Shown: positions 10,966 through 59,903 of the stretch, one piece after another | Position numbering within the stretch: position 1 is the stretch's first letter | Layout: each line of letters opens with the position of its first letter | Source of the DNA: an uncultured Lachnospiraceae bacterium | Lineage (GTDB): Bacteria; Bacillota; Clostridia; Lachnospirales; Lachnospiraceae | Reading direction: 5' to 3' | DNA: 64,000 nucleotides | Assembly (NCBI GenBank): GCA_902761665.1 | Contig: CACWLA010000002.1 | Coordinates: forward strand, 1-64,000 | Notes under the pieces: generated by a model | The model's database searches: none | The model's input: the letters and a program-made list of their open reading frames with translations, nothing else | What the model was told of the DNA's origin: nothing | Program-made: the position numbers and the translations under genes

Positions 10966-11030
10966 GCTTTCAGACCAGTTCCGACATTTTGGACGGTTCA
11001 TTCGTTATATGAGTGAAAGGAGGTTTTGTC

Positions 11031-38783: not shown

Positions 38784-38987
38784 TGATATCAGGGTCGAAA
38801 GCCTGACTCCGGGACAAGCTTGCTTGGCCATGGAGGAAGTGCTTTATGACCCGCCCCGACATGAGCAAGCAGTGGGGAAGGGGCCCCGCGAATTGCGAAT
38901 GGAGGGCAGGATTGTGGGAGTGCGCAGCACGAAACAATCCGTAATATCATATAGAGCATGCAAGGAGATAAGAAAGGAAATACAGCC

Positions 38988-41549: not shown

Positions 41550-41562
41550 GATAAGGAGCGGC

Positions 41563-42096
41563 ATGGCAAAGGAACGGTCGAAATTTCAGCAAAAACTGGA
41601 CGGCTTTCTTCGCACCCTGTTCTTCGAGGAGAGCGGGAAGCCGAAGAGCGCCGATCTTCTGTATTCTTTTTTGCTGGCGATCCTGTTCACCCTGATCTAT
41701 CTGATGGCCTACATGCTGCTGCTGGATCCGATCGAAAAACTCCTGTCAGACGCGTCGGTCACGGTGAGGAACATCGCTGAATACCTTCTTCCGGCAGCCG
41801 CCGGAAGCGCGCTCTGCCTGCTGATCCGTCATTTTCTGAAGGAACGGGGAAAACTCGCACTGGCGGCTTATCTGTGGATGACGGCGCTGCTCATCGCAGT
41901 CATGCTTTTTGCCCTGCTTCTGATCGACTGGTCCGATCCGAAGACGGAATACGGCCTGTTCATGGCCCTCATCGGCTTCCCGCTCATCGCCTCCATTCTG
42001 ACCGGAGGGATCCCGGCGCTCATCCTGCACCGGAAAATGATGAAAAAACGCGCCGAAGCCGAAAAGGCAAAGGAACGGCCGTCCTGGTACAAATGA
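41563..42096 (+). CDS. Small integral membrane protein, unknown function
   Basis: A 177-residue protein I cannot assign. The ATG at 41563 has AAGGAG upstream. After a basic N-terminus there are about four membrane segments (around 34-56, 71-90, 97-120, 130-152), and a charged C-terminus rich in Lys, Arg, Ala and Glu. It sits between the ABC importer genes and the MBL-fold gene, whose ATG directly follows its stop (TGAATG), so it is likely translated with that gene. Confidence 0.65.
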   Translation: MAKERSKFQQKLDGFLRTLFFEESGKPKSADLLYSFLLAILFTLIYLMAYMLLLDPIEKLLSDASVTVRNIAEYLLPAAAGSALCLLIRHFLKERGKLALAAYLWMTALLIAVMLFALLLIDWSDPKTEYGLFMALIGFPLIASILTGGIPALILHRKMMKKRAEAEKAKERPSWYK

Positions 42097-45184: not shown

Positions 45185-45913
45185 ATGACATTTGCGGGAA
45201 GCCTGCTGAAGCAGTATTCACTTCTGCAGCATCTTGAATTCTTCGCACGGATCATGGCAGCCTGCGTCTGCGGTGCAATCATCGGCTTTGAACGCAGCAA
45301 ACGCTTCAAGGAAGCCGGCATCCGTACGCATATCATCGTGTGCTGCGCAGCAGCAATGGTCATGATCATCTCCAAATACGGCTTTGCCGACCTGATCGGT
45401 CCGAACGGCGAGCATTTAGTCGGAACGAACGGCACGGATCCGGCTCGTCTTGCGGCGCAGATCATCACCGGTGTTTCCTTCCTCGGAGCAGGCATCATTT
45501 TCCGCAACGGCAATACCATCAAAGGCCTTACCACAGCGGCAGGCATCTGGGCAACAGCCGGGATCGGACTGGCCATCGGCAGCGGCATGTATATCCTCGG
45601 GATCCTGACCACTGCTGTCGTGGCGGTGATTCAGATCATCATGCACCGGCATACGATCGGCGGTGACTCGACGACGTTAAGCAGGATGCGCTGCACGACG
45701 TCTGAGCCGAAGGTTTTCCGAAAACAGTTGGATGAGTATCTGGAGGCAAACGGGATCCAGATCACGGATGTCAAGATCGAGCGCAACGAGAACGGGAGCA
45801 CGACATATGAATTGGAACTGCGGATCGGCCGAGAAATGACGATCAGCGACGTGACCGGTTTTCTGGAAGCCATGGACGGTGTACAGAAGATCAGTTTCGA
45901 AATGGAAGGCTGA
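45185..45913 (+). CDS. MgtC/SapB-family membrane protein
   Basis: A 242-residue protein. The N-terminal half has four or five helices with the MgtC patterns CVCGAIIGFERS, GIRTHIIVCCAAA, GVSFLGAGII and TIKGLTTAAGIWATAGIG; the C-terminal part (about 165-242) is a soluble ACT-like domain. MgtC proteins are tied to magnesium limitation, acid stress and control of ATP synthase or phosphate uptake, rather than to transport as such. GGAAAGGAG precedes the ATG. A bidirectional terminator follows. Confidence 0.92.
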   Translation: MTFAGSLLKQYSLLQHLEFFARIMAACVCGAIIGFERSKRFKEAGIRTHIIVCCAAAMVMIISKYGFADLIGPNGEHLVGTNGTDPARLAAQIITGVSFLGAGIIFRNGNTIKGLTTAAGIWATAGIGLAIGSGMYILGILTTAVVAVIQIIMHRHTIGGDSTTLSRMRCTTSEPKVFRKQLDEYLEANGIQITDVKIERNENGSTTYELELRIGREMTISDVTGFLEAMDGVQKISFEMEG

Positions 45914-45979: not shown

Positions 45980-46858
45980 TCAGCGGTAAAATTCCCGGAT
46001 ATAGTTCTCGACGTCCTCCCGCGTTCCCGTGAAGGGACCGGGCGTCTCCATCTTCAGGGAAACGAGCGCGGCGGCAAATTCCAGGGCTTCGGGAATGCTC
46101 CGGTGAAGCCGCTCCCCGAGGTAGCCGGCGAAGGTCGTATCGCCTCTGCCGGTGCGGCCGGAGAGGTTGCGGGCTCTCAGCGGCGCGCGGTAAATGCGTT
46201 CGCCGTCGCAGACGATGGCTTCGGTGTTGTGGGTGATCAGGACTTCCTTCGCGCCCCATTCGCAGAGCATGAAGGCGGCTTTTTCACGGTCGTCGGTCCC
46301 GGTCAGGACCTCGGCTTCGGCGGCGTCGGTCTTCAGGTAGCGGATGAGCGGCAGGTATTCCTTCTTTTCCGGCCAGTCGCGAAGTTCCAGAGATCCGTCT
46401 TCGTTTCGGCAGCGCAGGACGGCCTGCACGTCGAGCGCCGCATCGCCGAGGGCGGCGCAGGCTTTGATCATGTCCGGACCGATGTCGCCGGCGACCAGCC
46501 CGGCCAGGTGGTAGATGCGGGCTTTCTCTTCAGGGATGTCTTCGGGCCGGTAAGGTTCGATCATTCGCGTACAGAGGCAGCGCCTGCGTTCACGGTCGGC
46601 GGTGAAATAGGTGTTTTCCATCTCCGTACATGAGGCGGAGGTGACGGAGAAGATCTTCTCAACTTTGCTTTCCCGGAAGACCTCGAAGGGATCGACAAGA
46701 GCCGGATTGCCTTTGGGGACGACGGCAACGCGGTACCCCAGCGCCGCAGCGGCATGGCCGGAGAAGGTCACGGCGCCGCCTGCGCGGAATTCTTCACGTC
46801 CGTCCCAGTCGATGTTGTGGTCGCGGGTGATCTGCCCGATGATCATGATGTCATACAT
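45980..46858 (-). CDS. PfkB-family carbohydrate kinase, substrate unknown (inositol kinase candidate)
   Basis: A 292-residue ribokinase-fold kinase. The early GG motif is RAGGAVTFSGHAAAALG (25-41), and the anion hole with catalytic base is SGRTGRGDTTFAGYL (D240); GRGD replaces the commoner GAGD. The ATG at 46858 is preferred, with GAGG in front and overlapping the PHP gene end by 8 bases. It is the third gene of the lacI-PHP-pfkB operon divergent from the Iol-type operon. The short N-terminal part resembles archaeal/plant-type myo-inositol kinases more than IolC, but this is a weak impression; ribose, nucleosides or a keto-deoxy sugar acid remain possible. Confidence 0.82.
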   Translation of the reverse strand: MYDIMIIGQITRDHNIDWDGREEFRAGGAVTFSGHAAAALGYRVAVVPKGNPALVDPFEVFRESKVEKIFSVTSASCTEMENTYFTADRERRRCLCTRMIEPYRPEDIPEEKARIYHLAGLVAGDIGPDMIKACAALGDAALDVQAVLRCRNEDGSLELRDWPEKKEYLPLIRYLKTDAAEAEVLTGTDDREKAAFMLCEWGAKEVLITHNTEAIVCDGERIYRAPLRARNLSGRTGRGDTTFAGYLGERLHRSIPEALEFAAALVSLKMETPGPFTGTREDVENYIREFYR

Positions 46859-47561
46859 GCGGAATTGCCTCACATTCTTTCAGGATATCTTCGTACTCTG
46901 GACACCAGAGCGTATAATTACCGGATTCGATCAGAGCTTTCATTTCATAAGAATCGCGCACGCGCCGGGCGGTCAGGATGGCCGAGCGGCCTTCGTCCCC
47001 TTTCCTGTGGGCGTCCGAACCGACGGTCCGGTACAGCCCGGGATGCGCCTTTGCCAGGGCAAGCGCGAGATGATTGCGGCTGTCGTGGCGCGGGTTGCAG
47101 TTTGCGACTTCCAGGCCATGCACGCAGTCGTAGTAGACCGTATCGCAGTTCCGGTAGGGGTGCGCGTGGATGATCAGGACCTCATCCTTGAAACGGTCGA
47201 AAAAGGACTGATGATCCATGCGGGTGACGAAGGGGTGCTCATAGATCCATTTTTCGTCGATGCCGTAGATCAGATAGTCGCTGTCGTTCTCGGGAAAACG
47301 CAGCTCAGCGCCGAAAATGACATCCATGCCGAGACGGTCCCCTTCCGCCTTCGCAAGCCGCCATCCGTAAAGATAGCGGTCGATGCAGGCCTTCCAGTCA
47401 TCATGGCAGTCCATCAGGGAGGTGTACTGCTCGTGCAGGTGGTCGGTCACGCAAAGGCCCTGATAGCCCAGCTCGTGATATTTCCTGACCTGGTCCGCCG
47501 CGCGGACATGCCCGCAGCGGCTGGTCTCCATGGTATGCAGATGCAGTTCGTATTTGTACAT
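46851..47561 (-). CDS. PHP-domain phosphoesterase
   Basis: A 236-residue PHP protein. HLHTMETSRCGH (7-18), VTDHLHEQ (38-45), FGAELRF (83-89), IIHAHPYR (129-136) and VGSDAHRKGD (179-188) supply the metal-binding His, Asp and Glu residues. The family hydrolyses phosphate esters, often of small metabolites. It lies between lacI and the PfkB kinase in one operon, with overlapping or short junctions, so it probably acts on the same pathway. GGAG precedes the start. Confidence 0.85.
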   Translation of the reverse strand: MYKYELHLHTMETSRCGHVRAADQVRKYHELGYQGLCVTDHLHEQYTSLMDCHDDWKACIDRYLYGWRLAKAEGDRLGMDVIFGAELRFPENDSDYLIYGIDEKWIYEHPFVTRMDHQSFFDRFKDEVLIIHAHPYRNCDTVYYDCVHGLEVANCNPRHDSRNHLALALAKAHPGLYRTVGSDAHRKGDEGRSAILTARRVRDSYEMKALIESGNYTLWCPEYEDILKECEAIPHV

Positions 47562-47574: not shown

Positions 47575-48585
47575 TCATGCCCTGACCGACCGGCAGGACT
47601 TGCGTTCGATCAGGGAAGGCGGCAGGATCAGATTGGTCCGTTCGGCTTCGGGATCACGGATATGGTCGAGCAGCATGTCTACCGCGGAGGTGGCCATCTG
47701 CTGCGTGGGCTGGTTGATCGTGGTCAGGTCGATCTCGGGCAGGGCTGAGAAGGAAATGTTGTCGAAACCCATCAGGGAAACGTCTTTCGGGATGCGGATA
47801 CCTGCTTCGTAGGCGGCCTGCTTGACGCCGATCGCCAGCATGTCCGCGGAGCAGAGGATGGCAGTTTCCTGGTGCGGCCGGGAGAAATACTCGCCTGCGA
47901 GTGCGTAACCGACTTCGCGGGAACTTCGGGAATAAGTGCTGCGCAGAACGTGAGGTGTCATCCCCAGTTTTTCGCAGGAGGACAGATACCCGTCCAGCCG
48001 GAGTTCGTGCGTCTTCGAGTCAGAGCGGGCGCCGAAATACAGGATGTCGCGGTGGCCCAGAGAGAAGAGATATTCCGTTGCGATCTGCATGCCGCGGTAG
48101 TTGTCCACGGAGACATAATTCTCCGGATAATCCTGCATGTTCTCGCTGATGAAGACCGTGGGGACCTGTTTCGTCAGCGCGCTCAGGGACTCGTACGGTT
48201 CATGGCCGACGGGGATCATGATCACGCCGTCCACCTGCCGGCCGATGAGGAGGGAGAAGACCTCCAGCTCCAGATCGTGGTCGTAGGAGGAATTGCAGGC
48301 CATCAGGTTGTAGCCGCGGTTGCGGGCATAGATCTCCAGGTCGGCCGTCAGCTCACTCATGAACGGGTTGTTCAGGCTGGGCACGATCAGGCCGAGGATG
48401 TTCGTACAGCGCTTGACCATCGAACGGGCGATGGAATTCGGCGTATAGCCCATCTCCTTGCAGATCTTGAGGATGCGGCGGCGGGTCTCTTCGCTGATCT
48501 CGGGACTGCCGGAAACGGCACGCGAGACCGTGGCGTAGGAGACGCCGGCGACTTTTGCGACGTCTTTCAGGGTAACGGAAGCCAT
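47575..48585 (-). CDS. LacI-family regulator of the inositol-type regulon
   Basis: A 336-residue regulator: helix-turn-helix TLKDVAKVAGVSYATVSRAV at the N-terminus, hinge helix PNSIARSMV, and a sugar-binding-protein-like effector domain ending with QPTQQMATSAVDMLLDHI. The ATG at 48585 (GGAG upstream) is preferred to one three codons earlier. Its own promoter carries TAAACGTTTA, and the two plus-strand promoters at 36.1 and 48.7 kb carry ACGTAAACGTTTGCGT. This supports one regulon of three operons: importer, catabolic operon, and its own operon with PHP protein and kinase. Confidence 0.93.
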   Translation of the reverse strand: MASVTLKDVAKVAGVSYATVSRAVSGSPEISEETRRRILKICKEMGYTPNSIARSMVKRCTNILGLIVPSLNNPFMSELTADLEIYARNRGYNLMACNSSYDHDLELEVFSLLIGRQVDGVIMIPVGHEPYESLSALTKQVPTVFISENMQDYPENYVSVDNYRGMQIATEYLFSLGHRDILYFGARSDSKTHELRLDGYLSSCEKLGMTPHVLRSTYSRSSREVGYALAGEYFSRPHQETAILCSADMLAIGVKQAAYEAGIRIPKDVSLMGFDNISFSALPEIDLTTINQPTQQMATSAVDMLLDHIRDPEAERTNLILPPSLIERKSCRSVRA

Positions 48586-48630
48586 GAAACACACTCCGAA
48601 AGGGTAAAATTCGTTGAAATTACAATACTG

Positions 48631-48754: not shown

Positions 48755-48770
48755 ACGTAAACGTTTGCGT
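48755..48770 (+). promoter_or_regulatory. LacI operator of the 12-gene operon
   Basis: ACGTAAACGTTTGCGT, identical to the site at 36097-36112 and 7 bases behind the -10 box. Confidence 0.9.
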
Positions 48771-48797
48771 AAAACAAGCGACAGGACGGGACGGAAA

Positions 48798-49577
48798 ATG
48801 ATTAAGGCACTGCTGTTTGATCTGGGCGGAACGCTCCATACGGTGGAACATTCACGAAAGTCACGCCTCGATTTCTGCGCCCATCTGCTCCGGATCCTGG
48901 AAGAACACGGGATCTTTCTGGATACCGACGCGGAAAAACTGAACGGGATCCTTGCGGTAAACGGCGAAGAATATAAGCACTGGAGCGAGAAGTCGCTGCG
49001 GGAACTGCCCCAGCCCGAGATCTGGAGCCGCTGGTATCTCAGGGAGTTCGGCCTCGCGCCGGAGACCCTCGCACCCTTTGCCGAGGAACTGAGTTTTTAC
49101 TATGACCGGGAGCGTGTGGTCAATACGCCGCGGCCGCGGCTCAGGGAAACGCTGCTTACTCTGCACGGCATGGGCATCCGCATGGGCGTCGTTTCCAACA
49201 TCATTTCGACCACGCTCGTACCGTACGTCCTTGCGGAATACGGTATCGACGGCCTCATGGAATGCGTGGTCATGTCGAGCAGTACCGGCATCCGCAAGCC
49301 TGATCCGCGCATCTTTGAGACCGCGATGCAGGAGATGGGCATCACCGCGCCGGAGACCGGCTATGTCGGCGATACGATCTCGCGTGACGTGCTGGGCGCA
49401 GCGAATGCGGGGCTGGGACTGAACATCCGCATCGATAACCCGTCCATCGCCCACCGCGATGCGGCGTTTCTGGGAAGACCGGACGCGCCGAAAGCGGATT
49501 TTGTCATTCACGAACTAGACGAGCTGCCCGCCATCATCCGAAAGGTCAACGGACAGCTGCCGCACATAAAGGAATAA
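48798..49577 (+). CDS. HAD-superfamily protein with DLGGT motif, first of four in tandem
   Basis: A 259-residue HAD protein opening the operon. Motif I is LLFDLGGTLH (D8 present, Asp+2 replaced by G10). Motif II Ser in VVSNII, motif III Lys in IRKPDPR, motif IV YVGDTISRD are intact; the cap is inserted between motifs I and II. I prefer the ATG at 48798, which restores the usual family start; its ribosome site (ACGGAAA) is weak. It resembles the HAD protein of the co-regulated transporter operon at 36141. Substrate unknown. The missing Asp argues against a standard phosphatase mechanism. Confidence 0.83.
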   Translation: MIKALLFDLGGTLHTVEHSRKSRLDFCAHLLRILEEHGIFLDTDAEKLNGILAVNGEEYKHWSEKSLRELPQPEIWSRWYLREFGLAPETLAPFAEELSFYYDRERVVNTPRPRLRETLLTLHGMGIRMGVVSNIISTTLVPYVLAEYGIDGLMECVVMSSSTGIRKPDPRIFETAMQEMGITAPETGYVGDTISRDVLGAANAGLGLNIRIDNPSIAHRDAAFLGRPDAPKADFVIHELDELPAIIRKVNGQLPHIKE

Positions 49578-49598: not shown

Positions 49599-50321
49599 AT
49601 GACAGACACCATCTTCTTTGACGTAGGCAATACGCTGCGCATCGTCATCCCCGATAAGGAATTCTCCGACGCCGCAGAGGCGGAACTGATGCGGCTGGTC
49701 GGCGCGACCGAACCGAAGGAAGTGTTTTTCGAAAAGCTGGAAGCCAACTGGAAGAAATACCGCAAGGAAGCCAAGAAGACCTGGATCGACGCGGGCGAGA
49801 TGGAACTGTGGAACCAGCACCTGCTGCCGGATTACGATCCCGAACTGGTCTGCAGGCATGCAGGACGCCTCACGAGGCTGTGGCGTGACCATGACGGCCG
49901 CCGCGTTCCCCGCGAAGACGTGAAGGATACCATCATCGAGCTGGACCGCCGCGGCTATACCCTGGGTATCATCGCCAATACCATCACGGAGACCGAGATC
50001 CCCGACTGGATGGTCACTGACGGCGTAGCTCATTATTTCAAGGCTGTCATCCTCTCCTCGAAGGTCCGCATCCGCAAGCCCGATCCGGCTATCTACCATC
50101 TGGCCTGCCGCGCCATCGGCAAGAAGGAAGAAAACTGCGCCTACGTAGGCGACAACCCCATCCGCGACGTGCAGGGGACCCGCGACGCCGGTTTCGCACT
50201 GATGATCCGCATCGACGAGCCGGACACGATCGCGAAGGAACCGCAGGAGATCACCCTGCATCCGGACTATACGATCACCAGGATATCCGAGCTGCTGGAC
50301 ATCTTCCCGCCGCTTAAGTGA
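49599..50321 (+). CDS. HAD-superfamily protein with DVGNT motif and altered motif II
   Basis: A 240-residue HAD protein, 21 bases after the first. Motif I reads FFDVGNTLR: D8 kept, Asp+2 is G10. Motif II, normally Ser or Thr, is Ala here (GIIANTI). Motif III (RIRKPDPAI) and motif IV (AYVGDNPIRD) are intact. Loss of both the acid/base Asp and the motif II hydroxyl suggests that it may be catalytically weak, act on another bond type, or serve as a partner or ligand-binding subunit of its neighbours. AAAAGGAG precedes the ATG. Confidence 0.82.
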   Translation: MTDTIFFDVGNTLRIVIPDKEFSDAAEAELMRLVGATEPKEVFFEKLEANWKKYRKEAKKTWIDAGEMELWNQHLLPDYDPELVCRHAGRLTRLWRDHDGRRVPREDVKDTIIELDRRGYTLGIIANTITETEIPDWMVTDGVAHYFKAVILSSKVRIRKPDPAIYHLACRAIGKKEENCAYVGDNPIRDVQGTRDAGFALMIRIDEPDTIAKEPQEITLHPDYTITRISELLDIFPPLK

Positions 50322-50333: not shown

Positions 50334-51095
50334 ATGGAAAGAGAATTTGATGCGATTTTCTACGATCTGGGCGGCACGCTCCGCCTGGTCGAACGGGATG
50401 CAGCCTTTGAGGCCGAAGCCCGCCGCAAGATCGCCGAGATGTGCGGCGAGAAGGGCGATCCCGACGAGTTCTGCAAGTTTCTGGACTACCGCTATGCGGG
50501 CTACCGCAAATGGTGCTTCGAGACCATGAAGGAAGCGCCCGAAGAGGAACTGTGGACCAAATGGCTCACGCCCGAATACGACCGCGAACTCATCAAAAAG
50601 AACGCGATCGAGCTGACCATCGAATACCGCAACAAGGACGGACGCAGAGTGGTCGCTCCGAACGGCGCGCAGTCCATCAAGGACCTGTACGCGAACGGCT
50701 ACAAGCTCGGCATCATCAGCAACCTGGTCACCTCGCAGGAGATCCCGCGCTGGCTGAAAGCGGACGGCCTGGAGAAATACTTCGGCGCCGTGCTCCTTTC
50801 CTGCGTCGAAGGCATCCGCAAGCCCGATCCGGCCATTTCCAACAAGGCCTGCGACCTCCTGGGCGTAAAACCCGAGCGCTGCGTCTACATCGGCGACAAC
50901 TTAAAGCGCGACGTCGAAGGCACGCGCCTTGCGGGCTACGGCATGTTCATCCTCTATACCACGCCGGAGAAACTGGCGAAGGAAACGATTACCGACGAGA
51001 ACCGGCCTGACGCCGTCATCTTCGATTTCAATGAGCTGAAGGAGATCTTCCCGGCAGCGCCGCACGTGGCCTGGGACAAGATAAGGAGAGTCTGA
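50334..51095 (+). CDS. HAD-superfamily protein with DLGGT motif, third in tandem
   Basis: A 253-residue HAD protein. Motif I is IFYDLGGTLR (D11 kept, Asp+2 is G13), motif II GIISNLV, motif III IRKPDPAI, motif IV YIGDNLKRD. Its cap region, with Y-R-K-W and WTKWLTPEYDRE segments, is close to that of the next gene, so the two are recent paralogs. It lies 12 bases after the second HAD gene and one base before the fourth. The last 20 residues (FNELKEIFPAAPHVAWDKI) extend beyond the HAD core. Confidence 0.82.
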   Translation: MEREFDAIFYDLGGTLRLVERDAAFEAEARRKIAEMCGEKGDPDEFCKFLDYRYAGYRKWCFETMKEAPEEELWTKWLTPEYDRELIKKNAIELTIEYRNKDGRRVVAPNGAQSIKDLYANGYKLGIISNLVTSQEIPRWLKADGLEKYFGAVLLSCVEGIRKPDPAISNKACDLLGVKPERCVYIGDNLKRDVEGTRLAGYGMFILYTTPEKLAKETITDENRPDAVIFDFNELKEIFPAAPHVAWDKIRRV

Positions 51096-51096
51096 G

Positions 51097-51855
51097 ATGG
51101 AAAATATCAAAGCGATCTTCCTGGATCTGGGCGGTACCTTCCGCATCGTGGAGGAGAACGAACCCTTCTATCATGCCGCGCGCGTCCGCATCGCGGAGAT
51201 CTGCGGGACGGACATGGATCCTGATGAATATTACGCATTCCTGAACAGGCGCTATGACGAGTACCGCAAATGGGCCCTGCGCTTCATGTGCGAGGCGCCG
51301 GAGAAGGTCCTGTGGACCCGCTGGCTGGTGCCGGAACTGGACCGGGAATACATTGAAAAGAACGCCGTGGAACTGACCTATCAGTTCCGCCGCGCGAAGG
51401 GTGAGCGCGTGGTCGTTCCGGGCGGCATCGAGACCGTACGGGAGCTGCGGGCGCGCGGCTACAAGGTCGGCATCATCAGCGACCTCGTCGGAACGGTCGA
51501 GATCGACGAATGGCTGGATAAGGACGGCATCCGCGATCTCTTCTGCACCGTACAGCAGTCTTCCGTGACCATGCTGCGGAAGCCTCATCCGGCAATTTAC
51601 TACCTGGCTCTGGACGAGGCGGGCGTGCGGCCTGAGGACAGCGTATTCGTCGGCGACAACTTAAAGCGCGACATCCTCGGTGCGAAACAGACCGGCTTCG
51701 CGGGCACGGTGGCGGCGGACTATCCGGGCGGTCTCCCCATGACCTTCAATGAAGAAAACAAGCCCGACTGCTTCATCCATCATTTTAACGAACTGCTGGA
51801 CCTGTTCCCCGGTGAAGGAAAATACCTTCCGGAACGCGGCGAAAGGAGAGACTGA
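51097..51855 (+). CDS. HAD-superfamily protein with DLGGT motif, fourth in tandem
   Basis: A 252-residue HAD protein, closest to the one just upstream. Motif I is IFLDLGGTFR (D10 kept, Asp+2 is G12), motif II GIISDLV, motif III LRKPHPAI, motif IV FVGDNLKRD. AAGGAG lies in the end of the previous gene. The phosphoglycerate-mutase-like gene begins 6 bases after its stop, so tight co-expression is expected. Four tandem paralogs could form hetero-oligomers or cover a series of related substrates; neither can be decided from sequence. Confidence 0.82.
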   Translation: MENIKAIFLDLGGTFRIVEENEPFYHAARVRIAEICGTDMDPDEYYAFLNRRYDEYRKWALRFMCEAPEKVLWTRWLVPELDREYIEKNAVELTYQFRRAKGERVVVPGGIETVRELRARGYKVGIISDLVGTVEIDEWLDKDGIRDLFCTVQQSSVTMLRKPHPAIYYLALDEAGVRPEDSVFVGDNLKRDILGAKQTGFAGTVAADYPGGLPMTFNEENKPDCFIHHFNELLDLFPGEGKYLPERGERRD

Positions 51856-51861: not shown

Positions 51862-53427
51862 ATGAGCAAATACCTGAAAGCCGGCGGCGAAGCCCTGGCG
51901 AAAGCGGTGGAGAAAGTCTATGAGAGCGGGAAGACGGATTACCATCTGGAACCGCTGAACCTTTGGGAAGGCGGCGCGCCCGTCGGGACCGTGAAGCCCG
52001 GCGACGGCGTCATTTTCTGCTGCCGCAGAGGAGAGCGCGAGGTCGAACTGACCGACGCGTTCACGGATCCGGCATTTCCGGGATTTTCGCGGGAAAAGAT
52101 TGAACCTCTGGATTTCGTGATCCTGACGATGTACAATGAAAAATACACCTACCTGCCGATCGCCTTCGCCCCGTCCAAGGTGCAGATGGGCCTCGCGCAG
52201 GTCCTTTCCGAAGCCGGGAAGACCCAGCTGCATCTGGCTGAGAGTGAAAAATACGCCCACGTCACCTTCTTCTTCAACGGCGGCAACAATACGCCCTACG
52301 CAGGAGAGGATGATATCCGCGTCCCTTCGCCGAAGGGCGTGGCCTTCGAGACCGTGCCGGAACTGAGCCTGCCGAAAGTGGCGGAAACGCTCGGGGATGC
52401 ACTGCGGAAGGGCTATGACTTCATCGTGACGAACTTCGCGAACGGCGACGTCATCGGCCATACCGCAAGCGACGATGCAAAGCGTAAGGCCGTCACGGCG
52501 GTAGACAAATACCTCGGCGAGACCCTGAAGACCGCCCGCGAAGAAGGCTATACCGTCTTTGTGACCGCCGACCACGGCAACATTGAGACCCTTCGGACCG
52601 GCGACGGCAAGCCTCACGGGGCGCATACCACGAACCTGGTCGCGATAAGCGCCGTGGGCGAGGGCGTAAGACGCCTCACGAACCGCGGAAAACTCTGCGA
52701 CGTCGCGCCGACCGTCCTGTCCGCGATGGGGCTTCCGCAGCCGAAGGAAATGACCGGTTCACCGCTTTTCGCTTTCGAGAAGACCGGCGGCAAGGTCCTG
52801 CTCCTCATCCTGGACGGCTGGGGACTGGATTCCCCGACGAAGGACAATCCGCTTGCGACCGAGCCGATGCCGGTATGGAATGCGTTAGTCAGCGAAAACC
52901 CGACGGCGCAGCTCGATGCATCCGGTCCCGCCGTAGGCCTGGCGGAAGGCAAGACCGGCAACTCCGAAGCCGGCCACATCAACCTCGGCTCCGGCCGCGT
53001 GGTCCTGCAGGACGACGTCCGTCTGGACAACGCGATGAAGGACGGTTCCTTCTATGAGAATCCCGTCTTCCTGAAGACCATCCGGGACGTGAAGGCCCGC
53101 GGCGGCGCGCTGCACGTGCTGGGGCTCCTCACGAAGAAGTCCTCGCACGGCTCGGTGGATTATCCGCTCGGCGTGCTGAAGATGGCGGAAGCGGAAGGCC
53201 TGAAAGAGGTGTACGTGCACGTGATCTTCGACGGCCGCTCCACGCAGCCCGGCAGCGCACCTGCGCTTCTCAGGGAGTTCGGGGGACAGATCGAGGAGAT
53301 CGGTTCCGGCATCATCGTTTCGGGCGTAGGCCGCGGCGTCGCGCTGGACCGCGACCAGAACTGGGCCAAGGTCGAGCGGGCCTACCGCTCCCTGACCGAG
53401 GGCAAAGGCGAAGTTTACGGAGAATAA
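51862..53427 (+). CDS. Circularly permuted cofactor-independent phosphoglycerate mutase (GpmI-like)
   Basis: A 521-residue protein of normal GpmI length but with the halves swapped. Residues 1-303 match the C-terminal part of GpmI: R56 and R59 (RRGER), K130 (SEKYAHVTFFFNGG), D196/H200 (NFANGDVIGH), D237/H238 (TADHGN), H255 (GAHTTN), then EMTGSPLF. Residues 311-521 match its N-terminal part: DGWG (D318), the phosphorylated Ser in TGNSEAGH (S368), H429, DGRS (R459), GRG and DRD (R491, R497), ending AYRSLTEGKGE. All metal ligands and the Ser are kept; the Asp of DGRD is Ser460. The break falls in the loop of the transferase domain. Either 2PG/3PG interconversion or a related sugar-acid phosphate is possible. 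Confidence 0.9.
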   Translation: MSKYLKAGGEALAKAVEKVYESGKTDYHLEPLNLWEGGAPVGTVKPGDGVIFCCRRGEREVELTDAFTDPAFPGFSREKIEPLDFVILTMYNEKYTYLPIAFAPSKVQMGLAQVLSEAGKTQLHLAESEKYAHVTFFFNGGNNTPYAGEDDIRVPSPKGVAFETVPELSLPKVAETLGDALRKGYDFIVTNFANGDVIGHTASDDAKRKAVTAVDKYLGETLKTAREEGYTVFVTADHGNIETLRTGDGKPHGAHTTNLVAISAVGEGVRRLTNRGKLCDVAPTVLSAMGLPQPKEMTGSPLFAFEKTGGKVLLLILDGWGLDSPTKDNPLATEPMPVWNALVSENPTAQLDASGPAVGLAEGKTGNSEAGHINLGSGRVVLQDDVRLDNAMKDGSFYENPVFLKTIRDVKARGGALHVLGLLTKKSSHGSVDYPLGVLKMAEAEGLKEVYVHVIFDGRSTQPGSAPALLREFGGQIEEIGSGIIVSGVGRGVALDRDQNWAKVERAYRSLTEGKGEVYGE

Positions 53428-53480: not shown

Positions 53481-54497
53481 ATGATCAATGTTGGCATCAT
53501 CGGAGCCGGCCGCATCGGCCAGGTCCACATGAAGAGCATCATGACCGGCGTACCGCAGGCGAAGGTCCTTGCCGTTGCCGATCCTTACATGAAACCCGAG
53601 GTCGCTGCGTGGCTGGAAAACGCGGGCGTGGAGAAGATCACGAAGGACTATCGCGAGATCCTGGACGATCCCCGCATCGACGCGGTCCTCATCTGCGCCT
53701 CCACCGACCAGCATGCACCGCTGTCCATCGAAGCGATCCGCGCCGGCAAGCACGTCTTCTGCGAAAAGCCTGTCGACCACTCGCTTGAGAGGATCGAAGA
53801 GGTGAAGGCCGCGCTTGAAGCTTCCCCGAAGAAGATCAAATACCAGGTCGGCTTCAACCGCCGCTTCGACCACAACTACCGCGCGATCCGGAAGGCCGTC
53901 GAGGACGGAAAGATCGGCAAAGTTGAATTCATCCGCATCAGTTCCCGCGACCCCGAACCGCCGTCGCCTGCCTACGTGGCCGTATCCGGCGGCATCTTCC
54001 TCGACATGATGATCCACGACCTTGACATGCTGCGCTATCTTTCCGGCGATGAGGTCGAAGAGGTGACGGCTTACGGCGCGAACCTCGTGGATCCCGAGAT
54101 CGGGAAGGCCGGCGATGTGGACACCGTCGTCATTTCCGCAAAGCTGAAAAGCGGCGCGCTTGCCGCGATCGACGGCTGCCGCAAGGCGGTCTACGGCTAC
54201 GACCAGCGCGGCGAAGTTTTCGGCTCGAAGGGCTGCATCACGAGCAGCAACGACGCCGCGAACAACACAGTGCTTTCCACGGCGGACGGCATCATTTCTG
54301 AAAAACCGCTCTGGTTCTTCCTGGAACGCTACATGGGCGCCTACCAGGAAGAGATCAGGAGCTTCATCGACTGCATCGTGAACGATACCGAACCCGAAGC
54401 CGGGATCGAAGCCGGCCTCATCTCCGTGAAGCTGGCGATCGCCTGCAAAAAGTCCATGGATGAGCACCGCGCGGTCCGGATCGACGAGATCAAATAA
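53481..54497 (+). CDS. iolG: Inositol 2-dehydrogenase family (IolG)
   Basis: A 338-residue Gfo/Idh/MocA oxidoreductase. Rossmann motif GIIGAGRIGQVH (5-16), catalytic Lys in CEKPVD (near 95-100), SRDPEPP (about 155-161), and GGIFLDMMIHDLDMLRYL (about 170-187) with the Asp and His of IolG enzymes. It should oxidise myo-inositol (or a stereoisomer or derivative) to 2-keto-inositol with NAD. The IolE, IolB and IolD genes for the next steps lie downstream in the same operon, which supports the assignment. AAAAGGAG precedes the ATG. Confidence 0.88.
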   Translation: MINVGIIGAGRIGQVHMKSIMTGVPQAKVLAVADPYMKPEVAAWLENAGVEKITKDYREILDDPRIDAVLICASTDQHAPLSIEAIRAGKHVFCEKPVDHSLERIEEVKAALEASPKKIKYQVGFNRRFDHNYRAIRKAVEDGKIGKVEFIRISSRDPEPPSPAYVAVSGGIFLDMMIHDLDMLRYLSGDEVEEVTAYGANLVDPEIGKAGDVDTVVISAKLKSGALAAIDGCRKAVYGYDQRGEVFGSKGCITSSNDAANNTVLSTADGIISEKPLWFFLERYMGAYQEEIRSFIDCIVNDTEPEAGIEAGLISVKLAIACKKSMDEHRAVRIDEIK

Positions 54498-54514: not shown

Positions 54515-55567
54515 ATGGCAAAAGTCAGAGTCGGCGTAGCCGGTTACGGCACCATCGGGCAGCGCCTCGCGGACGGCGTCGCCATGCAGGGAGACATGGA
54601 ACTGGTCGGGATCGCGGATCTCGTTCCTTCGCTTTCCATCCGCGCGCTGCGTGAAAATGACATGATCGGCGCGAACGATGTGGAATACAAGCTCTATCTG
54701 GTCGACGGAGCTGATCCCGCGGCCTTCGCAAAGTACGACATCCCCGTCGCCGGGACCTTTGAAGACCTGTGCAGGAACGTGGACATCATGCTCGACTCCT
54801 CCCCGGGCGGCGTCGGCGCGAAGAACAAGCTGATCTACGAAAAACTCGGCGTCAAGGCCGTCTTCCAAGGCGGCGAAGCCAATTCCGTGGCGGACGTCTT
54901 TTTCCACGGCTACGCCAACTACGAAAAGGGTGTGGGCGTCGATTACCTGAAACTGACGAGCTGCAATACGACCGGCCTCATCCGGACCGTGGATGCGCTT
55001 GACCGCGCCATCGGCATCGAAAAGGTCGCGATCACGATCATCCGCCGCGTGGCCGATCCGGGCGACTATCACCGCGGACTGACGAACGCCCTGCAGATCG
55101 ACAAGGCGCCGTCCCACCAGGCACTTGACCTGATGACCATCATGCCGCACGTGGAAGCGACCGGCATCCTTGTCCATACGCCGGTCACCCACGGCCACAT
55201 CATCACCGTGCTGGCGACGGCAAAGGACGGAAAGAAGATCACCCGCGAGCAGGCGCTCGAAGTCTTCCGCGCGCATCCGCGCATCCGCACCGTCACCATC
55301 GACGAGGGCTTCAAGGGCAATGCATCTTTGTTCAAATATGCCCGGGATCTCGGCAACCGCCGCGGCGACATGTATGAAATCGGCCTCTGGGAAGACAGCA
55401 TCGTGGAAAGCGGAAACGACATCATGTACGCGATCAACATCCCGCAGGAGAGCGTCACGATCCCCGAGACCATGGACGCGATCCGCGCCGCGATGAAGAT
55501 GCAGCTGACCCGCGAAGAGGGCACTGCCGAGACCAACAAATATCTGAAGATCGGCCGTTTCAAATAA
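54515..55567 (+). CDS. Archaeal-type (type II) glyceraldehyde-3-phosphate dehydrogenase-like
   Basis: A 350-residue dehydrogenase of the archaeal GAPDH class, not the bacterial GapA class. AGYGTIGQRLADGV (9-22) is the nucleotide site, GGVGAKN (98-104), VFQGGEA (116-122), and SCNTTGL with the catalytic C150 are all landmarks of archaeal enzymes; RRVADP and PSHQALDL follow. Archaeal homologs oxidise glyceraldehyde 3-phosphate to 1,3-bisphosphoglycerate with NAD(P). The region after strand two (residues 36-60) is longer and different from archaeal proteins, so the aldehyde-phosphate substrate may differ. It is next to an archaeal-type PGK, its usual metabolic partner. Confidence 0.85.
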   Translation: MAKVRVGVAGYGTIGQRLADGVAMQGDMELVGIADLVPSLSIRALRENDMIGANDVEYKLYLVDGADPAAFAKYDIPVAGTFEDLCRNVDIMLDSSPGGVGAKNKLIYEKLGVKAVFQGGEANSVADVFFHGYANYEKGVGVDYLKLTSCNTTGLIRTVDALDRAIGIEKVAITIIRRVADPGDYHRGLTNALQIDKAPSHQALDLMTIMPHVEATGILVHTPVTHGHIITVLATAKDGKKITREQALEVFRAHPRIRTVTIDEGFKGNASLFKYARDLGNRRGDMYEIGLWEDSIVESGNDIMYAINIPQESVTIPETMDAIRAAMKMQLTREEGTAETNKYLKIGRFK

Positions 55568-55583
55568 GGCCGGAGGGAGAACG

Positions 55584-56834
55584 ATGCGCTTCGGGATCAG
55601 AACGCTGGACGAGATCGATGTGAAAGGAAAAACGGTCCTGTGCCGGGTGGACATCAACCAGCCGGTGGACCGCGAAAAGGATGCCCTGAAAAGCATCAAC
55701 CGGATCCGGGCCTGCGTGCCGACGGTCCGGGAACTTGCGGATAAGGGCGCGAAGCTCGTGCTCATGGCGCACCAGGGCAGCGACATCGAATATAAGAATT
55801 TCTACACGACGAGGCCGCACGCGAAGGTCCTTGCCGAACTGCTCGGCAGGGAGGTGAAATGGATCGACGACGTCTGCGGCCCCGCCGCCCGCGAAGCGAT
55901 CCGGGCCCTTAAGGAAGGGGAGATCCTCCTTCTCGACAACGTGCGCTTCGTCGCGGAGGAACAGACCCTCTTCGAAATGAAGCTGCGCCTGACCCACGAG
56001 CAGCAGGCAAAGACCCTGCTCGTGGAAAAACTCGCACCGCTCGCGGATCTCTACGTCTGCGACGCTTTCGCAGCCGCACACCGCGACCAGCCGAGCCTCT
56101 GCGGCTTCGAGCAGGTCCTGCCTTCGGCCATGGGGCGGCTTTTCGAACAGGAATACTGCACCGTTTCCGGCGTGATGGAAGCGCCGGAGCGTCCCTGCGT
56201 CTTCGTGCTCGGCGGCGCCAAGATCTCCGATGCCTTCCGCATGATGGAGACCGTGCTTTCGCGCGGCACCGCGGATGAGATCCTGACCGGCGGCCTCGCC
56301 GCGAACATTTTCCTGATCGCGCTCGGAAAGAAGATCGGAAAGGGAAGCGAAGATTTCATCGAAGCCTCCAACTACACCGAATTCTACCCGAAGGCGAAGG
56401 AACTGTACGAGGCGTACGGGGATAAGATCGTGCTGCCTGAAGACCTCGCCTGGACGGAAGACGGGCTGCGGAAAGAGGCGGCGGTCGGGGAGATCCCGGA
56501 CGGCGCCGCAGCCGTGGACATCGGTTCACGGACGGCAGTCCTGTACCGGGAGAAGATCCTGGCGGCAAGGACGGTCTTCGTGAACGGACCCATGGGCGTC
56601 TTTGAGAAGCCGGAGACCGAACTCGGCACGAAGGCGGTCTGGCAGGCACTGGCGGATACGGAAGGTTTCACCGTGGTCGGCGGCGGCGACTCGATCGCCG
56701 CGACCGAGAAGTACGGCATGACGGATAAGATGGGCTATATCTGCACGGGCGGCGGCGCGCTCATCCGCTTCTTAAGCGGTGAGGAACTGCCGGTCGTGAA
56801 GGCACTCAGGCACGGCTCGCAGTTGCCGCTGTAA
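55584..56834 (+). CDS. Archaeal-type phosphoglycerate kinase-like
   Basis: A 416-residue kinase of the PGK fold. RVDINQPVD (21-29), LMAHQG, LLLDNVRFVAEEQ, CDAFAAAHRDQPSLCGF, VLGGAKISDAF, NGPMGVFEKPE and VGGGDSIAATEKYG appear in order. The forms AHQG instead of SHLGRP, AAAHR instead of GTAHR and NGPMGVFE align with archaeal PGKs such as Pyrococcus rather than with bacterial PGK. Expected reaction: acyl phosphate plus ADP to acid plus ATP, taking the product of the GAPDH-like enzyme. It follows that gene by 16 bases with GGAGGG. A different acyl-phosphate substrate is possible. Confidence 0.87.
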   Translation: MRFGIRTLDEIDVKGKTVLCRVDINQPVDREKDALKSINRIRACVPTVRELADKGAKLVLMAHQGSDIEYKNFYTTRPHAKVLAELLGREVKWIDDVCGPAAREAIRALKEGEILLLDNVRFVAEEQTLFEMKLRLTHEQQAKTLLVEKLAPLADLYVCDAFAAAHRDQPSLCGFEQVLPSAMGRLFEQEYCTVSGVMEAPERPCVFVLGGAKISDAFRMMETVLSRGTADEILTGGLAANIFLIALGKKIGKGSEDFIEASNYTEFYPKAKELYEAYGDKIVLPEDLAWTEDGLRKEAAVGEIPDGAAAVDIGSRTAVLYREKILAARTVFVNGPMGVFEKPETELGTKAVWQALADTEGFTVVGGGDSIAATEKYGMTDKMGYICTGGGALIRFLSGEELPVVKALRHGSQLPL

Positions 56835-56863: not shown

Positions 56864-58117
56864 ATGAAGCTGCGCTACGGTTTCGGAAACGGTTTTCAGG
56901 AAGTGGAGGTCCCGGAGAAGAATCTCATCGGGGAACTCCATGCGAACCCTGTGCCGCCGGGACTTCCGGAGGCGGAGGAGGTCGCCCGCGCCCTGCGCGA
57001 ACCGATCGGTACCCCGCGTCTGCGGGACATCGTGCATCCGGGAGAGAAGATCGCCGTCATCACGAGCGACGTTACCCGTCCCATGCCGACGGCGAAGGTC
57101 ATGCCGCTCCTTCTGGACGAACTGTACGCCGGCGGCGTGAAGCCGGAGGACATCACCCTCGTTTTCGCCCTGGGAAGCCACAGACGCCAGAGCGATGAAG
57201 AACACCGGCGCCTTGCCGGCGAACGCGCCTTCCGCGAGATCCGCTGCATCGACAGCGATCCGGATGACTGCGTTTCCTACGGGAAAACGTCCTACGGAAC
57301 GCCGGTCGACATGACGCGAACTGTTGCGGAGGCGGACAGAAGGATCTGTCTCGGCAATATTGAATATCACTACTTTGCCGGATACTCCGGCGGCGCCAAG
57401 GCGGTCATGCCCGGCTGCTCCACGCGGGCGGCCATCCAGGCGAACCACAGCCGCATGATCCTGCCGGAATGCTGTGCGGGATCGCTGGAGAACAATCCGC
57501 TCCGCCATGACATCGAAGAAGCCGGCAGAATGGTCGGCATCGATTTCATCCTGAACGTGGTCCTGTCGGAGCACAAGGAGATCCTGAAGGCCGTGGCCGG
57601 CGATCCCGTGCTTGCGCACCGTGAGGGCTGCGCTTTCCTGGATAAGCTGTACCGCATCGAACTGCAGGAGGCTGCGGACATCGTCCTGGTCTCGCAGGGC
57701 GGAGCGCCGAAGGACCTGAACCTCTACCAGACGCAGAAGGCGCTGGACAACGCGAAGCATGCCGTAAAGGACGGCGGCATCATCATCCTGATCGGCTCCT
57801 GCCGGGAAGGCCTCGGGGAAAAGACCTTCGAGGAATGGATGACGGCGGCGCCCACGGCCCGGTCCCTGATCGAGCGGATCCGCCGCGAATTCAGGCTCGG
57901 CGGCCATAAGGCGGCAGCCATCGCGATGGTGCTGGAGCGCGCGGAAGTGGACCTCGTCAGCGAACTGGACGACGATTTCGTCCGCTCGATCTTCCTTGAA
58001 CCGCAGCCTTCGGCGCAGGCGGCGCTCGACCGCGCCTTTGCAAAACTCGGCCCGGACGCGCGCGTTCTCAGCATGCCGTACGGCGGCTCGACCCTGCCGA
58101 AGATCGTCCGGAAATGA
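56864..58117 (+). CDS. LarA-family (nickel-pincer) racemase/epimerase homolog
   Basis: A 417-residue LarA-like protein. TSDVTRPMP (67-75), GSHR (H106) and YHYFAGYSGGAKAVMPG (H169, K179) correspond to the LarA residues that bind the nickel pincer nucleotide; the Lys is the covalent anchor. LarA racemises lactate, but homologs act on other 2-hydroxy acids, including sugar acids. In this operon a 2-epimerase of a polyhydroxy acid is a reasonable idea. The larB, larC and larE genes needed to make the cofactor are not in the window. AAGGAG precedes the ATG; two hairpins follow the stop (58126-58143 and 58156-58175). Confidence 0.83.
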   Translation: MKLRYGFGNGFQEVEVPEKNLIGELHANPVPPGLPEAEEVARALREPIGTPRLRDIVHPGEKIAVITSDVTRPMPTAKVMPLLLDELYAGGVKPEDITLVFALGSHRRQSDEEHRRLAGERAFREIRCIDSDPDDCVSYGKTSYGTPVDMTRTVAEADRRICLGNIEYHYFAGYSGGAKAVMPGCSTRAAIQANHSRMILPECCAGSLENNPLRHDIEEAGRMVGIDFILNVVLSEHKEILKAVAGDPVLAHREGCAFLDKLYRIELQEAADIVLVSQGGAPKDLNLYQTQKALDNAKHAVKDGGIIILIGSCREGLGEKTFEEWMTAAPTARSLIERIRREFRLGGHKAAAIAMVLERAEVDLVSELDDDFVRSIFLEPQPSAQAALDRAFAKLGPDARVLSMPYGGSTLPKIVRK

Positions 58118-58175: not shown

Positions 58176-58189
58176 GAAGGAGCATGAGC

Positions 58190-59098
58190 ATGCGCTTATT
58201 CGACCCTGAAAAAGTAAAACTCGGCATCGCCCCCATCGGCTGGTGCAATGACGACATGCCGGAACTCGGCGCAGAGAATACCTTCCGTCAGACGGTGAGC
58301 GAAATGGCACTCGCCGGTTTCACGGGCTGCGAGATCGGCAACAAATATCCGAAGGATCCTGCCGAACTGAAGTGGGAACTGGATCTGCGCGGCATGCGGA
58401 TCGCGAGCCGCTGGTTTTCTTCCTTCCTGCTGACGAAACCTCTGGAAGAAAACCTGGCGGACTTTGAGAAGGAACTGGATTTCCTCGCGGCCGTAGGCGC
58501 CGACCGGATCAACGTATCGGAGCAGAGTTGGTCGATCCAGGGAAAGACGGACGTCCCCATCCTGACCGGCGGCTTTAAGCATGTGATGAACGATGAGGAA
58601 TGGGAGCGGCTCTGCAGCGGCCTCGACGCCCTCGGCAAGGCGGCGGCGGAGCGGGGCTTCAAACTCTGCTACCACCACCATATGGGGACCGTGGTCCAGA
58701 CTGCGGCCGAAACGGACCGCATGATGGCAAATACCGATTCGCGCTATGTGTTCCTGTGCTACGACACCGGCCACTTTACCTTCGCGGGCGAGGATCCCCT
58801 GGCCATGCTGAAAAAATATGTGGACCGCGTGGGGCACGTGCATCTGAAGGATATGCGCCTGGACGTCGTCAGGCAGGCGCGGGAAAACGGCTGGAGCTTT
58901 CTTCAGGCCGTGCGCGAAGGCGCATTCACGGTACCGGGCGACGGGGACGTCGATTTCGACCCGGTCTTCCGTCTGCTTTCGGAAGCCGGCTACGAAGGCT
59001 GGCTGCTCGTCGAGGCGGAACAGGATCCGGCGAAGGCGAATCCGCTGGAATATGCCATCAAGGGACGCCGCTACATCGCGGAACATACGGGACTGTAA
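58190..59098 (+). CDS. iolE: Inosose dehydratase (IolE)
   Basis: A 302-residue AP-endonuclease-2/xylose-isomerase-type TIM barrel. The opening VKLGIAPIGWCNDDMPELG is the IolE signature, and CYHHHMGTVVQT, CYDTGHFTFAGEDP and GHVHLKDMR carry the metal-binding residues. It dehydrates 2-keto-myo-inositol to 3D-trihydroxycyclohexane-1,2-dione. I choose the ATG at 58190, which is 7 bases after AAGGAG; an ATG two codons earlier is too close to it. It works between IolG and IolD. Confidence 0.93.
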   Translation: MRLFDPEKVKLGIAPIGWCNDDMPELGAENTFRQTVSEMALAGFTGCEIGNKYPKDPAELKWELDLRGMRIASRWFSSFLLTKPLEENLADFEKELDFLAAVGADRINVSEQSWSIQGKTDVPILTGGFKHVMNDEEWERLCSGLDALGKAAAERGFKLCYHHHMGTVVQTAAETDRMMANTDSRYVFLCYDTGHFTFAGEDPLAMLKKYVDRVGHVHLKDMRLDVVRQARENGWSFLQAVREGAFTVPGDGDVDFDPVFRLLSEAGYEGWLLVEAEQDPAKANPLEYAIKGRRYIAEHTGL

Positions 59099-59111
59099 GG
59101 AGGAAGAACAG

Positions 59112-59903
59112 ATGTATCTGAACAAGGAACTGCACCGCGGATACAATGCCTATATCGATACGGCGGAAGATGATCTGGGAACGCGCATGGACGTGGGGCT
59201 CCTCGTCATGGAAGCCGGCGACGAATACTGCATCGATGACCCGGTGAAGGAGACGGCGGTCCTTCTTTTTGAAGGAAACGTGACGTTCCGGTATGCGGAC
59301 AGGGAAGTCCGCGCCGAACGCCCCGACTGCTTCCGCCATGAGGCGTACTGCCTGCTGGCGCCCCGCCGCACCCGCATCGAGATCCTTGCGGAAAGCCACG
59401 CGGAACTCTACATCCAGCAGACGGACAACGACCGCGATTACGAGCCGGTCATGTATACGCCGGAGACCGTCCAGACCCAACACGCCGGCAATAACGGCGA
59501 GCTCATGGGCTGCATGCGCCGCGAGATCAAGACCTTCTTCGACTACGACAACGCGCCGTTTTCGAACATGGTCCTCGGCGAGGTCCTGAACTATCCGGGC
59601 AAATGGTCCTCCTACCCGCCGCATTACCATCCGCAGCCGGAGGTCTACTTCTACCGTTTCGACTATCCGAACGGCTTCGGCGTGGGCTTTGCGAACGGAC
59701 AGGTCCACAGGACCGGCCACAACGGCTGCCTCGTCATCAACGAAGGCATGCACTCCCAGGCGGCGGCGCCTGGCTATGCCATGTGCTATTCCTGGGGCAT
59801 CCGCCATCTGGAAGGCGACCCGTGGCTGAAGACCCGCATTGATGAAAAAGAACACGAATGGCTCTGGAAAGCCGATGCCAACGAACATATCTTTCAAGGC
59901 TGA
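59112..59903 (+). CDS. iolB: 5-deoxy-glucuronate isomerase (IolB)
   Basis: A 263-residue bicupin isomerase. The metal-binding segment PPHYHPQPEVYFYRFDYPNG (about 172-191), the later EGMHSQAAAPGYAMCYSWGI, and the length fit IolB. It converts 5-deoxy-D-glucuronate, made by IolD, to 2-deoxy-5-keto-D-gluconate. TAAGGAGG lies before the ATG at 59112; a longer frame overlaps iolE. The product normally goes to the kinase IolC and aldolase IolJ, neither of which is nearby. Confidence 0.93.
   Translation: MYLNKELHRGYNAYIDTAEDDLGTRMDVGLLVMEAGDEYCIDDPVKETAVLLFEGNVTFRYADREVRAERPDCFRHEAYCLLAPRRTRIEILAESHAELYIQQTDNDRDYEPVMYTPETVQTQHAGNNGELMGCMRREIKTFFDYDNAPFSNMVLGEVLNYPGKWSSYPPHYHPQPEVYFYRFDYPNGFGVGFANGQVHRTGHNGCLVINEGMHSQAAAPGYAMCYSWGIRHLEGDPWLKTRIDEKEHEWLWKADANEHIFQG

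Follow-up and report, generated by a model that had tools for sequence, protein, structure and literature searches.

Cofactor-independent phosphoglycerate mutase (iPGM; GpmI) transfers phosphate from one hydroxyl to the next within a single molecule via a serine in a closed cavity. A relative of this enzyme, here named cpGpmI, is encoded on the forward strand at positions 51862-53427 of the 64,000-nucleotide stretch analyzed here (positions 1 to 64,000 of contig CACWLA010000002.1, assembly GCA_902761665.1, from an uncultured Lachnospiraceae bacterium; "the window" denotes this whole stretch). Compared with GpmI (TIGR01307; PDB 1EJJ, 1O98), cpGpmI shares the metal ligands, the catalytic Ser, and the two-domain make-up, but its halves are swapped, and it carries Ser in place of Asp154, Lys at position 120, and Arg at position 260 (1EJJ numbering).

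TM0415 (PDB 5YSP) phosphorylates inositol at the 1-position with pyrophosphate (PPi), not ATP or ADP, to give inositol 1-phosphate, Ins(1)P (PMC5931981). The PfkB kinase encoded near cpGpmI and its counterparts at other loci have the inositol and PPi contacts in common with TM0415, but Leu, Val, or Ile in place of its F221. Inositol gene clusters occur in 29.8% of species, according to one survey (PMC9430895). As in classic inositol catabolism, IolG, IolE, IolB, and IolD are encoded downstream of cpGpmI in the window; unlike the classic route, the window IolB is divergent, no IolC over the cut-off was found in the window's genome (best score 151.8 vs. 300 bits), and cpGpmI, HAD, and importer genes are added. 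Phytate use by Mitsuokella reportedly passes through inositol 2-phosphate, Ins(2)P, and inositol (PMC7618129, PMC12482443), and the same intermediates are proposed below for the carriers of cpGpmI; by contrast, the carriers mostly lack a PTP-like phytase, and at the step from inositol monophosphate a mutase and PPi would replace the phosphatase.

Circular permutation of GpmI and extent of the permuted class

The open reading frame (ORF) of 521 amino acids is single and free of stops. By phmmer against PDB sequences, residues 15-303 matched 1EJJ 219-509 (domain E-value 1.2e-57), and residues 312-519 matched 1EJJ 6-213 without gaps (domain E-value 3.5e-45); this bears out the claim of an earlier note on this DNA that the C-terminal part of GpmI precedes the N-terminal part in one frame, with a short linker between the native ends (found at about residues 304-311). 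The linear order of ordinary GpmI is not followed, and the best Pfam stretches are likewise reversed, the metalloenzyme domain (residues 102-292) preceding iPGM_N (residues 389-517). Both GpmI segments are complete save for a few residues at the joints and ~40% identical to ordinary GpmI, with ~14 extra residues at the start and ~8 in the linker; summed over two stretches, the TIGR01307 (GpmI) score reaches 471.1 bits, above the cut-off of 330.65. Judged by its sequence, cpGpmI is certainly a circular permutation of GpmI. Structure prediction, as proposed in the earlier note, did not give the refuting outcome named there: the AlphaFold2 model has a pLDDT of 89.0 and a pTM of 0.79. As the structure aligners follow chain order, their superposition on GpmI reached the C-terminal 60% only, and the arrangement of both halves in one fold rests on the model pTM and the sequence. 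From published domain limits, we infer that the permutation unites the phosphatase domain, made up of two pieces in ordinary GpmI, into a single uninterrupted stretch and splits the transferase domain instead, while the chain still crosses the hinge twice.

A large class of proteins has the swap as a fixed trait, which goes beyond the first reading of the window. A protein search from cpGpmI scored 8000 candidates, and in the best 120 of 7983 relatives, as in the query, the halves are in swapped order (121 of 121, by BLAST comparison with the ordinary GpmI of the window's genome); a second search, seeded with the most distant member, added 16 proteins, so that 137 of 137 (the query plus 136) are permuted. 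The best 80 of 221 places that encode relatives in genome contigs were taken as loci, and all 80 contain a permuted ORF. This survey for the same order of halves, for which the earlier note had called, yielded at least 225 permuted entries, at least 208 of them distinct, from the 80 loci, the protein searches, and further loci; the class is larger than this count, as only the best 120 were taken per protein search. Where the sources give class members a name, it is either phosphoglycerate mutase or alkaline phosphatase family protein, and the annotation of the class may thus mislead. As judged from listings, a permuted GpmI was not found in the literature on circular permutation with phosphoglycerate mutase or the alkaline phosphatase superfamily.

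By record title, the carriers are Lachnospiraceae, Oscillospiraceae, other Clostridia, Spirochaetales, and Chloroflexota (Levilinea saccharolytica and an Anaerolineae metagenome-assembled genome, MAG). The loci closest to the window's cpGpmI (98-99% identical) are in Lachnospiraceae records with RUG names, RUG standing for rumen genomes, and the window is probably from a rumen bacterium as well. Among 391 genomes sampled evenly from the window's class, cpGpmI is rare, with two carriers including the window's own genome (E-value 1e-100); among 98 related genomes, six encode a full-length permuted copy, again including the window's own, and one more has a fragment of the C-terminal part. In an unrooted tree of 93 rows (a subsample of 50 permuted sequences, without the divergent cp_L062_0, and 43 ordinary GpmI sequences, all taken from carriers or from kin of the window), a branch with support of 100 sets the permuted sequences apart from the ordinary ones. 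A single origin of the permutation is compatible with this unrooted tree and its narrow ordinary sample, being neither contradicted nor proved. Among the same 43 ordinary sequences from carriers and kin, no unpermuted relative with the residues of the permuted class was found.

Two minor observations concern individual loci. Locus L062 holds two permuted GpmI genes (2372-4027 and 9869-11572) with ABC genes between them, and one of the two copies is very divergent, GSD replacing GRS. In an Anaerolineae MAG (L104), a gene at 11271-12476 that by eye looks like an ApgM-type mutase follows the permuted gene.

Active site of the permuted class

Residues are numbered as in 1EJJ through the phmmer alignment of cpGpmI, a mapping that held when checked, and 87 distinct permuted rows were compared with 43 ordinary sequences. 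The active-site residues of GpmI we take to be D12, S62, H123, R153, D154, R185, R191, R261, R264, and K336, as well as D403, H407, D444, H445, and H462; its Arg residues, kept in cpGpmI, presumably bind phosphoglycerate at its phosphate and carboxylate. The metal positions agree with those of iPGM from C. elegans (PMC5382265). In the numbering of cpGpmI, the metal ligands D196, H200, D237, H238, H255, and D318 and the nucleophile S368 are the same in all permuted (87/87) and all ordinary (43/43) sequences, which extends to the class what the earlier note had claimed for the window protein. The equivalents of H123, R185, R261, R264, and K336 are kept in 87/87 permuted rows, and those of R153 and R191 in 86/87 each. 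Since the catalytic residues are conserved across the class, cpGpmI is very likely a functional enzyme, as the first reading had proposed.

The class also differs from ordinary GpmI in its active site. The Asp of DGRD had been read as Ser460 in cpGpmI, and this holds: at the position of Asp154, Ser is present in 86/87 permuted rows (the exception is one L062 copy) and Asp in 43/43 ordinary sequences, while DGRD of GpmI is DGRS in 207 of the 208 distinct permuted sequences (the motif was not found in one). G120 is replaced by Lys in 85/87 permuted rows (Gly in 43/43 ordinary sequences), F260 by Arg in 87/87 (Phe in 42 ordinary sequences, Tyr in one), and N259 by Cys in 87/87 (Asn in 43/43). In total, 33 sites of the alignment separate the permuted class from ordinary GpmI, and an ordinary GpmI with a mere swap of order is disfavored by them. 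The literature search, as judged from listings, gave nothing on Asp154 of GpmI.

Because Lys and Arg are gained and an acid is lost at the substrate site, the substrate of cpGpmI is probably different from, and more anionic than, phosphoglycerate; that it is a compound other than phosphoglycerate is likely. An ordinary GpmI is also encoded in the window's genome, for which a role of cpGpmI as the only glycolytic mutase is thereby rejected, and in 37 of the 50 genomes of carriers. The changed substrate raised as a possibility in the earlier note is therefore supported by D154S, G120K, F260R, N259C, the second GpmI, and the inositol-type neighborhood. In this class, which spans three phyla, a two-domain glycolytic enzyme has been circularly permuted in nature and its active site has changed, so that the rearrangement of the fold goes along with a likely change of role.

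Neighborhood and partner kinase

The genes of the 80 loci, many of which are cut by contig ends, were called by our own script and clustered; counts by tblastn with the window proteins take in weak matches. By tblastn, the loci encode HAD proteins (76), LacI-type regulators (58), PfkB (51), IolG (29), PHP-domain proteins (28), type II GAPDH (24), phosphoglycerate kinase (PGK; 23), IolE (21), LarA (20), and IolD (20); the weak matches include two PGK at 38-39% identity on the other strand (L054, L055) and two LacI at 28-32% identity. Gene clusters add MgtC (28), some importer gene (28), and a proton-pumping pyrophosphatase (H+-PPase; 24, named by eye, the family search matching the same genomes), and by gene calling any of iolG/E/B/D is present in 23 of the loci. 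The locus is non-glycolytic in most carriers, and the counts support a neighborhood that in most loci is built around inositol and phosphate transfer, not glycolysis. In one carrier (G474), IolG, HADs, LacI, PHP, cpGpmI, MgtC, and PfkB are all encoded within 14 kb. Levilinea, whose cpGpmI is 58% identical to that of the window, has the order iolD (45% identical), an iolE-like gene, iolG (51%), a HAD gene, and cpGpmI, followed by ABC genes. As judged from listings, nothing on this gene set was found in the literature.

The full-length HAD proteins of the loci (n = 235) fall at 50% identity into groups of 61, 50, 49, 46, and 25, plus four singles. Each group holds one window gene and is nearly always represented by one member per locus, which argues for five separate conserved roles and not for recent copies.

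Against the PDB, the window PfkB matches TM0415 (1vk4, 5ysp) and 7e4l, titled only as a PfkB domain-containing protein, at E-values of ~1e-37 to 1e-38, the next match being at 2.3e-4. In all 49 kinases compared (the window and 48 loci), the RXGRGD motif, the TM0415 inositol contacts D11, N78, Q141, and R145, its PPi contacts K171, R229, and R232, and M266 are kept; the S89 position holds Ser, Cys, or Ala. The partner PfkB is accordingly predicted to be a PPi-dependent inositol kinase. Fifty carrier genomes were set beside the 391 class genomes and 14 control genomes; the carriers are mutually related and some come from other classes, and the figures are counts, not independent trials. A TM0415-like kinase (E-value 1e-20) is encoded in 48/50 carriers vs. 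6/391 class genomes, the six including the two cpGpmI carriers of that sample, and IolD is over the cut-off in 39/50 carriers vs. 3/14 controls, with partial matches in a few more carriers. A single kinase match (E-value 1e-20; 34% identical) occurs in the Levilinea genome, ~13 kb past cpGpmI on the same contig; as the sole match in that genome, it is the probable gene of homologue No. 49, a Levilinea kinase that is PPi-dependent on inositol in vitro (PMC5931981). At places with a TM0415-like kinase and no cpGpmI (L140, L141, L142), the neighbors are others, e.g., ABC transporter genes.

Candidate roles and gene map

The reading we tentatively favor, by analogy with GpmI, is that cpGpmI may be a mutase of inositol phosphates. 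An importer would take up inositol phosphates left by the phytases of other microbes, and cpGpmI would shift phosphate between neighboring ring hydroxyls via a phospho-serine, rather than turn 2- and 3-phosphoglycerate into each other. It would move phosphate from C2 to C1, and so convert Ins(2)P to Ins(1)P. Because Ins(1)P is the product of TM0415, the PPi-linked kinase working in reverse would convert Ins(1)P and phosphate (Pi) to inositol and PPi; the membrane pyrophosphatase could use the PPi so formed, and the free inositol would enter the iol pathway. In favor of this reading are the kept catalytic residues and changed substrate residues of the class, the frequency of the TM0415-like kinase and of IolD among carriers, the Levilinea locus, and H+-PPase, which is encoded in 24/80 loci and is over the cut-off in 48/50 carriers vs. 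226/391 class genomes and 4/14 controls. Under this scheme, cpGpmI would be the first inositol-phosphate mutase (none was found in the literature under four names), and the reverse kinase and the proton-pumping pyrophosphatase would bank the energy of phytate esters as a proton gradient; in this specific form, we regard the proposal as rather unlikely. If inositol phosphates are the substrates, the use by some anaerobes of the lower inositol phosphates left from phytate would be explained, and PPi-based energy saving would become directly testable. A 2025 review urges a search for unknown gut phytate degraders (PMC12482443).

A number of points weigh against an inositol-phosphate mutase and the scheme around it. 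Most loci have no iol gene within 10 kb (any of iolG/E/B/D in 23/80 by gene calling, iolG in 29/80 by tblastn), and type II GAPDH (24/80) and PGK (23/80) lie beside cpGpmI in the group of loci around the window, as a phosphoglycerate mutase role predicts. The kept Arg set points to a substrate with a second anionic group; an inositol monophosphate fits this poorly, and an inositol bisphosphate or a phospho-acid better. Energetically, the reverse kinase step is mildly unfavorable and would depend on high levels of Ins(1)P and Pi together with little PPi. The kinase is missing from 2/50 carriers (the genomes of L062 and L066), and the fifth TM0415 signature residue, F221, is Leu in 22, Val in 20, and Ile in 7 of the 49 kinases. 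The usual second Asp of HAD phosphatases is missing from the locus HADs, motif I having Gly at this position in 225/235 (the motif was not found in 10). H+-PPase is common in the class anyway (226/391), and a PTP-like phytase, the only phytase type searched for, was found in 1/50 carriers, barely over the cut-off, and in 0/14 controls. The fold of the importer's solute-binding protein was dropped as a pointer to the ligand, since ferric-binding, Mg-citrate, hexose-phosphate (AfuA), and STM0429 proteins score alike. TM0415 has a Km of 12 mM for inositol, and those who described it suspect that its acceptor is a different compound; No. 49 makes several inositol monophosphates, not Ins(1)P, and here too another true acceptor is favored (PMC5931981).

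A phosphatase would also fit parts of these data. If water hydrolyzed the phospho-serine and no return transfer took place, cpGpmI would be an inositol (poly)phosphate phosphatase; the alkaline-phosphatase-type metal site is fully kept, several HAD genes, in some loci along with a PHP gene, accompany it, and the substrate residues are altered. This is unlikely, in that both GpmI domains and nearly all Arg and Lys of the transferase side are kept, for which a plain phosphatase would have no need, and in that the paired kinase would recover phosphate as PPi only if simple hydrolysis did not occur.

The kept Arg residues that in GpmI presumably bind the carboxylate agree with a mutase of another phospho-acid of the inositol route, e.g., a phospho-ketogluconate or phospho-aldonate, as does the lack of an IolC over the cut-off noted above. 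The authors of the TM0415 report themselves propose that the true acceptor may be an inositol relative or an acid of the inositol pathway (PMC5931981). The four inositol contacts kept in 49/49 kinases and the classic IolD, mostly kept among carriers (39/50), count against such a substrate, which we think quite unlikely.

Less likely still, given the separate ordinary GpmI in the window's genome and in 37/50 carriers, is an ordinary phosphoglycerate mutase that would serve inositol-derived triose together with the neighboring type II GAPDH and PGK. Its support comes from the adjoining type II GAPDH of the window and of 24/80 loci, the PGK genes (23/80, two at 38-39%), a score above the GpmI equivalog cut-off, and the kept phosphate-binding residues; type II GAPDH was not seen in 56/80 loci, many of them cut by contig ends, and DGRS in 207/208 sequences and the 33 class-separating sites speak for another role. 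An assembly error or a fusion of gene fragments, named in the earlier note among the outcomes that would refute its reading, and conceivable in a draft genome of 55 contigs, is practically ruled out by the intact single frame and by the recurrence of the same order in separate assemblies (80/80 loci), including strain records (Levilinea saccharolytica KIBI-1, Oscillibacter valericigenes An860, Butyricicoccus pullicaecorum ET57).

Table 1. Features of cpGpmI and of the genes around it, with positions in the window.
Feature	Position	Strand	Basis
HAD protein, orthologue group E, adjoins ABC importer	36141..36902	+	Family search, clustering
ABC importer double permease	36942..38783	+	Best NCBIfam relatives ModB, PhnU2, all below cut-off
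ABC importer ATPase	38958..40145	+	UgpC, PotA, PhnT2-like, below cut-off
Solute-binding protein, predicted ferric-binding-protein-like fold	40185..41498	+	SBP_bac_1 below cut-off; predicted structure
MgtC family membrane protein	45185..45913	+	Family search; 28/80 loci
PfkB kinase, TM0415-like, predicted PPi-dependent inositol kinase (RXGRGD)	45980..46873	-	PDB relatives, residues
PHP-domain protein, possible phosphoesterase	46851..47561	-	Family search; 28/80 loci (tblastn, weak matches included)
LacI-type regulator, divergent from operon	47575..48594	-	Named by eye; 58/80 loci (tblastn)
HAD protein, orthologue group A	48765..49577	+	Family search, clustering
HAD protein, orthologue group B	49599..50321	+	Family search, clustering
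HAD protein, orthologue group C	50334..51095	+	Family search, clustering
HAD protein, orthologue group D, immediately upstream of cpGpmI	51097..51855	+	Family search, clustering
cpGpmI, circularly permuted GpmI-like protein, 521 aa	51862..53427	+	ORF, Pfam/TIGR01307, phmmer, AlphaFold2 model, alignments
Native C-terminal part (GpmI 219-509), now first	51904..52770	+	Residues 15-303, phmmer
Linker between native C- and N-ends, about residues 304-311	52771..52794	+	phmmer alignment limits
Native N-terminal part (GpmI 6-213), now last	52795..53418	+	Residues 312-519, phmmer
Catalytic Ser368 (= Ser62 of 1EJJ)	52963..52965	+	Alignment; Ser62 role presumed
Ser460 at Asp154 position of 1EJJ	53239..53241	+	Ser in 86/87 permuted rows, Asp in 43/43 ordinary
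IolG inositol 2-dehydrogenase	53481..54497	+	441.4 bits, cut-off 355
Type II (archaeal-like) GAPDH	54515..55567	+	386.1 bits, cut-off 185
Second PGK	55584..56834	+	PF00162 396.6 bits, cut-off 27
LarA-type malate racemase (LarAH6)	56864..58117	+	556.8 bits, cut-off 500
IolE inosose dehydratase	58184..59098	+	406.7 bits, cut-off 290
IolB-like 5-deoxyglucuronate isomerase, divergent	59052..59903	+	83.2 bits, below cut-off 205; start may lie further in
IolD	59928..61850	+	902.5 bits, cut-off 715

Beside the importer genes (Table 1), whose solute-binding protein had no phmmer match in the PDB at an E-value of 0.01, a protein of 183 amino acids (41545-42096) has no Pfam or NCBIfam match, and in 15 related loci the importer is likewise accompanied by a family of proteins of about this size. 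Between the importer and kinase genes, a ComEC-like protein of the metallo-beta-lactamase fold is encoded (42097-43047), with its cluster in nine loci including the window. The genes for type II GAPDH and the second PGK (54515-56834) lie inside the inositol cluster, and the genome's other PGK gene lies near the ordinary GpmI and TpiA genes. The LarA-family malate racemase gene (56864-58117) stands among the inositol genes, and a malic-enzyme-like gene was seen by eye in six related loci; in some related loci, split-transketolase-like and malic-enzyme-like genes are added (also by eye).

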